Origin: Citrus sinensis
Lineage: Eukaryota; Streptophyta; Magnoliopsida; Sapindales; Rutaceae
Reading direction: 5' to 3'
Assembly (NCBI RefSeq): GCF_022201045.2
Contig: NC_068564.1
Span: 28,363,001-28,427,000 of the forward strand
Length of the DNA: 64,000 nucleotides
Shown here: positions 6,930 to 9,269 of the stretch, one piece after another
Layout of the letters: every line of letters starts with the position of its first letter
How positions within the stretch are numbered: the stretch's first letter is position 1
The notes under the pieces: generated by a model
The model's input: only the letters and a program-made list of their open reading frames with translations
What the model was told of the DNA's origin: nothing
Database searches by the model: none
Made by a program: the position numbers and the translations under genes

Positions 6930-6945
6930 TAAATAGAAGAGTGCT

Positions 6946-7270
6946 GCTATTTGCCCCGAAATCGCGCCCCGAAATCGCACCTCGAAATTAAAACGCACCG
7001 TTTGTTCTGAGTTAATCACGTGTCTTGCTTTATAAAGGAAAAAGTTGGGGAAAGAAAAAGCAAAAGTTGTTTCTTCACGTTTCTTCAGTCAAACACGTGG
7101 GCCTAACTTGTTAAAAAGTTGGGGAAAGAAAAAGCAAAAACAACGTTTCTTTGTTATTTCCTTTGAAATTTTGTCTCCACACGTGTTGTCCAATTTTGTC
7201 TTCACTTTCCATTTCACTTCTCTAGTTAGCAGCACTCTGAGCTTTCACTTTCCTGTTGTCAAATTTTGTC
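6946..7270 (+). repeat. MULE terminal inverted repeat, left arm
   Basis: Left arm of the element, matching the reverse complement of 8917-9253 with only scattered substitutions and one 12-bp difference. It begins with three short CCCCGAAATCGC-like subrepeats. It then carries three CACGTG cores (near 7017, 7095 and 7180) and a TTTATAAAGG TATA-like box (about 7030-7039). The last ~70 bp (7186-7255) is repeated in tandem at 7256-7324. The TATA box points inward, so the arm could act as promoter for the cargo gene. Confidence 0.85.
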
Positions 7271-8340
7271 TTCACTTTCCATTTCACTTCTCTAGTTAGC
7301 AGCACTCTGAGCTTTCACTTTCCATTTCACTTTCCCGTAAAGCAAGGTAAACATTTTGCTTTCACTTTTCATTTCTCTTTCCAGTTAGCAGCACTCTTTT
7401 TCTTCAGGCAGATTCGTCACTTAAGTCATTCAGATCTGAACTCAACTCTTGTTCGATGGTTCGTTCTCTTGCTCTCGTTCAATTTTCATTATTGTGTTTG
7501 ATGCATGTATCATCATCTGATGGGTGGTTTTTATGCTGGCTTCTTGTGGTAGAGGTAGCTTTATTTATTTAATTATTTTTGGTTAATTGAATTAGTTATC
7601 GAGTCGGATACTGTGGGTGTGGTTGCTATAACATTTTGTAAATTACAAAAATTAAATTGGACAGATTTTACATATTTCGCTTGCTATCAAGTCGGATACT
7701 GGATTTGGATGTTTGGAATGATGAATATCGGTTGTGCTTTGCTGCTACTGTGCTTAGATCCTTAATTATCTGTGTTATGCTTGTTTTGGTCATTTCTTCT
7801 GGGGAGGTGGTGTTCTGTTTCTTCAGGGTTGAAACAGAGGGTTGCTTGGTGTTTGGTTATGAACATAGTGATTTTTTGTTTGACTTACTCTTGCTTCTTC
7901 TATTTTTTATTAATTTTTTATTATTTAAAAATGTTTAGATTGGTATGTTTTTGATGTATGCCTGAATTGATTGGCTTATTTGAGTTTGATTAAAATGCTA
8001 AATAAATGGTGGAAGCAAGGAATTGAAAATTTGATGATAGTTTGTTATTATTGTAGGAACTTGATGTAGTTATATTTTAATGGACGAATATTGCTTCAGT
8101 ACATGAATCATTATGGGCAACAGATACCATGCTTGTTTAGCAACATGAGCAACCAATCTCGAGAGAGCTTTTCTCATGTTTCTATTTTATTTTCCTTCAG
8201 CCCTAGGAATTGGACACTTTGACACCCTGGGAATTTAATTTCTGTTTTATTTGTGTGTAACTGGTGCTGTAATTGTTGTATGTTCTAATTTATTTTCGAT
8301 TTTTTTTCTGTTTCGTAGTTTCGAAAATCAATTAACCACA

Positions 8341-8688
8341 ATGTCAACTAGCACAAGTGAAATTCGAAACTCACAGCAGCTATGTAACGGATGCGGTAAT
8401 TACATGGAGTTATTAACGTCACGTACAACAAAGAATCCAAATCGTAAATTTTGGCTTTGTAAAAGATGTAATAATTTTCAATGGGCTGAAGATCGTAAAC
8501 CAAGCGAAGAGAAAATTGATTTGTTAGTGGAGGAGGTTAGAAAGTTAGCATTAGAGATTGAGTGTTTGTCCATTAAATTCCAATTATTATATGATAACGA
8601 ACTTCGAAGGAGACAGACACCAAAATATGATTACATTAAAATACTTGTAATTGTTGTGATATGTTATCTATTCAAGTGTTATTTTTAA
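8341..8688 (+). CDS. GRF-type zinc-finger protein with C-terminal membrane segment, MULE cargo
   Basis: Encodes about 115 aa. Residues 15-51 form a GRF-type zinc finger: Cys15, Cys18, Cys40 and Cys43, with TKNPNRKFWLC before the second pair and a closing WAED. A charged, heptad-like stretch follows (about 55-90, coiled-coil-like). The protein ends in a hydrophobic segment, IKILVIVVICYLF, a likely tail anchor. The chosen ATG lies 21 bp after a good splice acceptor (TTCTGTTTCGTAG, ending 8319), so a 5' UTR intron from a transcript starting in the left TIR is likely. The frame is also open upstream from 8251. GRF fingers bind nucleic acid in several known proteins; the role of these short plant versions is not known to me. 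The gene is enclosed in the transposon. Confidence 0.72.
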   Translation: MSTSTSEIRNSQQLCNGCGNYMELLTSRTTKNPNRKFWLCKRCNNFQWAEDRKPSEEKIDLLVEEVRKLALEIECLSIKFQLLYDNELRRRQTPKYDYIKILVIVVICYLFKCYF

Positions 8689-8916
8689 GTTTTATTATTT
8701 TGTACTATGTATTAATTTGCAATTGATTAATTGATTAGTTGATGTCAATTGTTTCTTTATCCCATGGCAATTTCTAGTTTTGTGAATTTCCAAGAAATTT
8801 CCTTCGTGTTTTCACTTGTTTATTTTGGAACTAGCTAAGAAATTTATTGACATAATGTACATGCGGAATTTGAACATAACGTTCTTGCATGGCAAAATCT
8901 TCATACTTGAAATCGT

Positions 8917-9253
8917 GACAAAATTTGACAACAGGAAAGTGAAATGGAAAGTGAAAGCTCAGAGTGCTGCTAACTAGAGAAGTGAAATGGAAAGTGAAGA
9001 CAAAATTGGACAACACGTGTGGAGACAAAATTTCAAAGGAAATAACAAAGAAACGTTGCTTTTGCTTTTTCTTTCCCCAACTTTTTAGCAAGTTAGGCCC
9101 ACGTGTTTGACTGAAGAAACGTGAAGAAACAGCTTTTGCTTTTTCTTTCCCCAACTTTTTCCTTTATAAAGCAAGACACGTGATTAACTCAGAGCAAACG
9201 GTGCGTTTTAATTTCGGGGTGCGATTTCGGGGCACGATTTCGGGGCAAATAGC
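8917..9253 (-). repeat. MULE terminal inverted repeat, right arm
   Basis: Mirror copy of the left arm. It has the same TATA-like CCTTTATAAAG box (on the minus strand) and the same CACGTG cores, so it could drive inward transcription in the opposite direction. Confidence 0.85.
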
Positions 9254-9269
9254 TTTTTCCTAAATAGAA

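Follow-up and report, generated by a model that had tools for sequence, protein, structure and literature searches.

A 2322-bp Mutator-like element (MULE) in the genome of Citrus sinensis probably derives, as a non-autonomous copy, from a MULE family with two genes, in which the GRF zinc-finger gene carried by the element is the family's own second gene. That the GRF gene is not a chance capture is well supported by the sequences compared. The element is located at positions 6939–9260 of the window, which is the whole 64,000-nucleotide stretch of contig NC_068564.1 that was analyzed. In longer members of the family, a FAR1-type transposase gene and the GRF gene are read inward from opposite ends and therefore converge. 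The window copy contains no transposase gene, but has the GRF gene and both ends, and is flanked by the two copies of a 9-bp duplication.

The original prediction of a Mutator-like element without a transposase holds exactly in its coordinates, and the claimed 9-bp duplication, TAAATAGAA, is real (Table 1). The two copies of the duplication agree in nine of nine bases, within the 8–11 bp characteristic of MULE target site duplications; the probability of an exact nine-base match at fixed places is about 7e-6 at the local base composition. The arms form the long terminal inverted repeats of a MULE, with 302 of 308 bases identical between positions 6946–7253 and 8946–9253, and a gapped alignment of 337 columns has 94.7% identity. 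Inverted arms of about 330 bp, as predicted, are thus present up to their tips, but the outermost heptamers, GAGTGCT and GGAAAAA, agree in the first G only. The same two end types are found in the relatives of the element. Three CACGTG cores and an inward TATA-like box had been claimed for each arm, and all were located in both; the single TATAAA of each arm reads inward and is positioned inside a near-palindrome. No transposase match was found in the window, and the MULE (DDE) transposase domain of the family is provided by the relatives described below.

Table 1. Features of the window element, and positions of the RNase-H1-type gene copies in related loci
Feature	Position	Strand	Remark
Target site duplication, left copy TAAATAGAA	6930..6938	.	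Identical to 9261-9269
Left arm	6939..7270	+	Tip GAGTGCT; CACGTG at 7017, 7094, 7180; TATAAA at 7031
Probable 3' splice site TTTCTGTTTCGTAG of 5' leader intron	8317..8318	+	22 nt before ATG; splicing predicted
GRF passenger gene, 115 aa	8341..8688	+	Open frame; PF06839; relatives genome-wide
GRF zinc ribbon, residues 14-51	8380..8493	+	Cysteines 15, 18, 40, 43 invariant in 8 aligned copies
Hydrophobic C-terminal tail, membrane-anchor-like	8629..8685	+	Hydropathy 1.77
Right arm	8917..9260	-	Tip GGAAAAA; CACGTG at 9014, 9100, 9177; TATAAA at 9165
Target site duplication, right copy TAAATAGAA	9261..9269	.	Identical to 6930-6938
RNase-H1-type gene copies	L072:4058-4354; L075:4322-4720; L076:224-622

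Of the frames in the element that reach 40 aa, the GRF frame is the one that could be named. Its protein product matches PF06839 with 27.1 bits, compared to a cut-off of 25.9, and the four cysteines invariant in eight copies agree with the zinc finger predicted for the cargo ORF. At E 0.01, PF06839 is detected in six and PF23549 in seven of the eight aligned copies, and a search of solved structures with the GRF protein gave no good match (best E 0.17, RPB9). The last 19 residues of the window protein are moderately hydrophobic, with a Kyte-Doolittle value of 1.77, and C-terminal hydropathy is 1.77–2.63 across all eight copies. The predicted tail anchor is therefore borne out as a hydrophobic C-terminus, whereas the anchoring itself is suggested by hydropathy only. 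In five of six copies compared by eye, a pyrimidine-rich tract with AG at its end precedes the start codon by about 25 nt, and its recurrence at a similar place suggests an intron in the 5' leader of the GRF gene. Stops in the ORF elsewhere in the genome had been listed as evidence against the original prediction; many GRF matches are indeed cut or contain stops, but open frames were found too.

Seven long loci were fetched around GRF genes, and all seven contain both genes in convergent orientation. The C2 locus was chosen by its arm and GRF gene, whereas L066–L071 were chosen by GRF match; in three of these six (L066, L068, and L071) a transposase piece had already been seen in the short flanks before the choice. 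The C2 relative (C2:5763106–5770493, 7388 bp) has the same two end types as the window element. Its GRF gene is 94% identical to that of the window and is positioned on the strand opposite to the transposase, which is in pieces in three frames (MULE 119 bits, SWIM 28.7, and FAR1 20.5, the last below the cut-off) and is broken where L066 has a single open frame. No 9-bp duplication was found at the flanks of this full-length copy. The L067 locus contains a 6-kb element with inverted ends that are 95% identical over 373 columns, and with convergent frames of 731 open transposase codons and a GRF protein of 121 aa; its flanks are runs of A, so that a duplication there cannot be judged. Convergent open frames of 729 codons for the transposase and 131 codons for GRF are present in L066, in which no inverted ends were found. 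Loci L068–L071 contain both genes, whole or partial, with GRF identities to the window protein down to 50% and transposase identities to the C2 copy down to about 45%.

The MULE domain (PF10551) is detected with 119–128 bits in L063, L066, L067, L069, and L071. The transposase of L066 also contains FAR1 (52.4 bits) and SWIM (37.4 bits) domains, that of L067 contains FAR1 (53.2 bits) with no SWIM match at E 0.001, and that of L071 contains SWIM with FAR1 absent. Based on this layout, with FAR1 at the N-terminus together with SWIM, the predicted transposase of the relatives is FAR1-type (Jittery-like), and the tree that was built holds the copies of this genome alone. The two genes of the C5 pair (30064006 and 30074950, locus L070) are 10.9 kb apart. 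Between the GRF gene and the probable transposase are frames that, by eye, resemble Gag/Pol of an LTR retrotransposon (L070:6193–9400), and the pair was therefore missed by the 8-kb limit used genome-wide.

For the genome-wide comparison, the best 150 of 200 GRF matches were merged to 98 loci, and 150 of 780 FAR1-type transposase candidates were scored and merged to 149 loci. A GRF gene within 8 kb of a transposase was counted as paired, and 1000 circular shifts of the positions served as the null. Among the matches listed, 59 of the 149 transposase loci and 59 of the 98 GRF loci have a partner, in every case in convergent orientation; because the paired loci are copies related by descent, they demonstrate joint travel of the two genes and not 59 independent associations, nor by themselves a need of the element for both. 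The shifted positions gave a mean of 0.74 pairs and a maximum of 6 in 1000. Pairing follows identity to the C2 transposase: among the matches listed, a GRF gene accompanies 23 of 31 transposases at 75% identity or more, 30 of 63 at 60–75%, 6 of 18 at 50–60%, and none of 37 below 50%, although a partner seemingly absent from these counts may be merely unlisted. Neither GRF nor the alternative second gene described below is within 8 kb of 34 of the 112 transposase loci with at least 50% identity, among the matches listed. In L074 (60% identity), inverted repeats frame about 4.4 kb with no second gene visible. The L073 locus has a transposase frame of 741 codons and no GRF gene nearby among the matches listed.

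Eight diverged GRF matches (those with E 9.5e-14, L069 included) have identical scores and no stops, and are distributed over four chromosomes. A transposase match is located 1.2–3.4 kb from each of them, with open frames of 737 codons in four cases and 398 codons in the other four. Judged from the scores, not from the sequences, the eight matches suggest a recently active and recently spread family.

The dN/dS comparison proposed along with the original prediction was performed with 12 full-length GRF frames from 30 fetched loci; the others are cut, contain stops, or are frameless. Of the 66 pairs, 43 have dS > 0.4, with dN/dS values of 0.18–0.42; in the 23 closer pairs, dN/dS ranges from 0 to 0.75. 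The window and C2 genes differ by seven nonsynonymous and three synonymous changes, and their dN/dS of 0.54 is based on these ten changes, so that constraint is evident across subfamilies and not for the window copy. Five transposase frames (three beside GRF, one beside an RNase-H1-type gene, and one with neither) give 0.19–0.25 in nine of ten pairs and 1.02 in one close pair. The GRF gene is constrained across subfamilies to much the same degree as the transposase. The transposase tree has 14 rows, all copies of this genome, with L012 left out because it is the same locus as L068. The GRF and transposase trees are concordant on close pairings, but their deep nodes are too poorly supported to establish co-descent.

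The exact 19-base end motif occurs in the genome only in the window element, but the left arm, used as a query, matches 34 stretches, including the window's own. Further copies, which the original prediction had proposed to find by their ends, are therefore recognizable by related arms and not by the exact terminus. Both ends could be placed in 14 related elements of 172 to 3764 bp. Each has one GAGTGCT-like and one GGAAAAA-like end; these ends were found by the two end motifs with at most three substitutions, and the pattern of end types is therefore partly a product of the search. The same does not apply to the duplications, which agree in 9/9 bases in 11 of the elements, 8/9 in two, and 7/9 in one. 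Outside the 14 are the C2 full-length copy, which was scored apart, the C4 copy in L005 and C6:9789634, each with one end seen, C1:10015508, whose other end is unclear, and C8 places at 4.18 and 4.20 Mb. At 172 bp, L051 (C3:6012819–6012990) is a miniature element with both ends of the family and with 9-bp duplications that agree perfectly.

Eleven arms were aligned over 322 bp; the rows share descent, and ten of them have the first CACGTG core. TATAAA is present in 10 of the 11 arms and absent from that of C2. All three CACGTG cores occur in the two window arms only; the remaining nine rows have one or two. A near-perfect symmetry of the arms is not a general trait, as the inverted ends of the 7.4-kb C2 relative match over just 61 bp. 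In an inverted-repeat search of 30 GRF loci with 1.5-kb flanks, long near-perfect arms were found in the window copy alone; the repeats of L008 and L010 are weaker, L031 and L032 each have a single weak one, and L028 and L029 gave repeat-rich noise. This search is misleading, because the two-gene elements are 6–7 kb long and their ends are mostly beyond such flanks. The near-perfect symmetry is probably derived in the window copy, though L067 too has long matching arms.

The left arm of the window element is nearest to that of the C8 element (97% over 225 bp), in which a transposase interrupted by stops and the beginning of GRF are still present. The tip on the GRF side is GGAAAAA in the C2 full-length copy, the C8 element, C2:26290522, C9:17193548, and the C4 copy in L005. 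In the window element it is GAGTGCT, opposite to these five other readable GRF-bearing copies. The reversed tips imply an inversion of the inner segment with respect to the terminal heptamers, and the inner part may have been turned round by recombination between the inverted arms.

A second, distantly related transposase class also has a GRF partner. A genome search with PF06839 gave 44 matches, 43 of them away from the FAR1-associated GRF loci. In locus L082, a GRF frame of 169 codons (L082:35–541), the single copy read, has a C-terminal hydrophobic stretch of 1.87 and faces a MuDR-type transposase frame (L082:1855–3999) of at least 715 codons, still open where the piece ends. The transposase contains DBD_Tnp_Mut, MULE, and SWIM domains with no FAR1 match, and its core is 22% identical to the FAR1-type transposase over 98 residues. 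Of 832 MuDR-type candidates, 150 were scored and merged to 145 loci. With the same 8-kb threshold, 27 of these have a GRF gene among the matches listed, and all 27 pairs, again related copies and not independent events, are convergent, compared to a mean of 0.36 and a maximum of 7 for shifted positions. Pairing among the matches listed again follows identity, here to L082: 18 of 22 loci at 60% or more, 9 of 75 at 45–60%, and none of 48 below 45%. In a two-sequence comparison, the MuDR-type and FAR1-associated GRF proteins are 23% identical (E 1e-5). The MuDR-type gene may have a common origin with that of the window or may be a separate acquisition. Seventeen of the 44 PF06839 matches are near no listed MuDR-type transposase. 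One of these (C8:20757396) is the FAR1-type copy in L071, and the other 16 may be host genes, orphan copies, or unlisted pairs.

Some FAR1-type transposases have an alternative second gene, first met in L072, that encodes a protein of about 124 aa containing a Ribonuclease H1 N-terminal domain (PF01693; positions in Table 1). The domain scores 64.6 and 58.9 bits in two full copies and 15.6 bits, below the cut-off, in the interrupted first copy. The C-terminal stretch is strongly hydrophobic, with 3.15 in all three copies scored. Genome-wide, 48 listed matches merge to 41 loci, 22 of which are farther than 8 kb from any listed transposase. Among the matches listed, the 112 transposase loci with at least 50% identity divide into 59 with GRF, 19 with the RNase-H1-type gene, and the 34 with neither, and none has both. 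The 19 pairs include 18 convergent ones and one tandem pair at 7.5 kb; the null from shifted positions had a mean of 0.37 and a maximum of 4. In the transposase tree, two RNase-H1-type carriers cluster with the GRF carriers L067, L068, and L014 (bootstrap 100), and the enclosing clade (bootstrap 98) excludes both L074, in which no second gene is visible, and a FAR1-like gene of the host. The simplest reading of the tree, with its two carriers, would be a single replacement of GRF by the RNase-H1-type gene. Among six copies, dN/dS is 0.50–0.63 against the most diverged copy and 0.42–2.48 over all 15 pairs; constraint on this gene is weaker, or less well measured, than that on GRF. The presence in one subclade of a different nucleic-acid-type head with a hydrophobic tail fits selection for a head plus tail and not for GRF itself.

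The function of the second gene can be approached from this architecture. The zinc ribbon, judging from its domain family, would bind nucleic acid of a transposition intermediate, and the hydrophobic tail, judging from hydropathy, would anchor the GRF protein to a membrane, which might be the nuclear envelope or that of the ER. The protein might then aid the reinsertion of cut-out elements, in the place held by mudrB in MuDR. This combination of nucleic-acid binding, membrane hold, and mudrB-like help in reinsertion is possible, though short of probable. More speculative, and rather doubtful, is the generalization that plant MULEs of at least two distantly related classes depend on a small, convergent, tail-anchored partner that binds nucleic acid with an exchangeable head (GRF zinc ribbon or RNase H1 N-terminal domain), and which would tether transposition intermediates or element RNA to a membrane such as the nuclear envelope. 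We know of no membrane step described before in DNA transposition. According to the accessible part of PMC6446971, mudrB of maize MuDR is apparently required for integration, and Jittery shows apparent excision without reinsertion. These two observations make a reinsertion helper the first choice for the function of the GRF protein, and an anti-silencing factor the second.

An anti-silencing second gene would shield its element against silencing by the host, the role of VANC in Arabidopsis Hiun. Known second genes of MULEs include one of this kind (PMC6446971, accessible text), GRF is kept by a copy without transposase, and the conserved blocks of the arms could serve as targets. However, a chromatin factor would not be expected to have a hydrophobic tail, and we consider this function somewhat unlikely. 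The tail, present in all eight GRF and all three RNase-H1-type copies scored, would suit a host-facing protein that acts on host membranes or on host repair or defense, with an indirect effect on transposition. Such a role is unlikely, as both alternative heads are nucleic-acid-type domains, which suggests that the target is probably nucleic acid.

The original prediction had offered two readings of the cargo, a captured host gene or a regular passenger with a role in the life of the element. Host-gene capture was dropped as the main reading, with 59 of 149 transposase loci paired and all pairs convergent. It would make the window element a Pack-MULE with the GRF ORF as a bystander, and in its favor are the absence of a transposase from the element, the 17 of 44 PF06839 matches near no listed MuDR-type transposase, and the 39 of 98 GRF loci near no listed FAR1-type transposase. 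Pack-MULEs with host gene fragments are, moreover, common in plants (PMC6446971, in the part available). A captured fragment would have a donor copy outside the elements; none was identified, although GRF matches near no listed transposase exist. Nevertheless, capture is highly improbable: genome-wide co-location and fixed orientation speak against it, GRF faces the transposase across transposases 50–100% identical to one copy, and its frames are open and constrained across subfamilies. The 59 convergent pairs and this constraint strongly favor the regular passenger. It is also improbable that the two genes were merely co-amplified and that the GRF ORF is a relic without a present role for the element. 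Many GRF copies are cut or contain stops, and close copies are little constrained (the 23 pairs at 0 to 0.75), as expected of a relic, but the constraint across subfamilies, the presence in two MULE classes, and the replacement by an analogue argue otherwise, and the eight stop-free, equal-score matches 1.2–3.4 kb from a transposase point to recent spread with the frame open.

The organization as a two-gene family resembles that of MuDR, which has convergent gene order, promoters in its ends, and 9-bp duplications. Here, the second gene is convergent in 59 of 59 and 27 of 27 GRF pairs among the matches listed. Whereas the mudrB protein is of unknown function, the second gene here encodes a hydrophobic-tailed protein with a GRF zinc ribbon or an RNase H1 N-terminal domain; to our knowledge the mudrB protein is unrelated to either kind. 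The accessory proteins and the transposase type of Hiun and VANDAL are likewise, as far as we know, unrelated to those found here. The likeness to Hiun and VANDAL is that of a MULE with accessory genes (vanB and vanC), one of them anti-silencing (PMC6446971, accessible text). In several MULE lineages, Jittery-like ones included, ULP1 is located downstream of the transposase, according to the available part of PMC2528002. These elements (KI-MULE, and the MuDR-like and Jittery-like ones of grape and melon) are alike in carrying a non-transposase gene, but ULP1, a protease domain, occurs in either orientation, whereas GRF is small, has a hydrophobic tail, and is convergent in 86 of 86 pairs among the matches listed.

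Second genes of MULEs are thus already known, namely mudrB, MutB, vanB/vanC, and ULP1 (PMC6446971 and PMC2528002, accessible parts). The term GRF is absent from the accessible text of both papers, and the open-licence literature, available partly at the level of titles and abstracts, gave no account of MULEs with a GRF or RNase H1 N-terminal second gene. The mutual dissimilarity of mudrB, vanB/vanC, and ULP1 is a puzzle. A single small architecture in two transposase classes, swapped for an analogue in a subclade, makes a common accessory function testable. The findings are also a warning for annotation, as many small plant genes labeled as GRF zinc fingers may be transposon genes. The window element is similar to a Pack-MULE in being a non-autonomous MULE with a gene and without a transposase, but differs in that its cargo is probably the family's own second gene and not a captured host fragment.

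Jittery belongs to group 36 of Dupeyron et al. 2019, with FAR1 at the N-terminus and SWIM towards the C-terminus (PMC6446971, accessible part), and the transposase of the relatives here likewise has FAR1 at the N-terminus together with SWIM. The plant subgroup of the Jittery group is described in the same text with one ORF and with duplications that are 8-bp or unstated, in contrast to the two genes and 9-bp duplications of the family presented here. The GRF gene is a concrete candidate for the reinsertion function that seems to be missing in Jittery.
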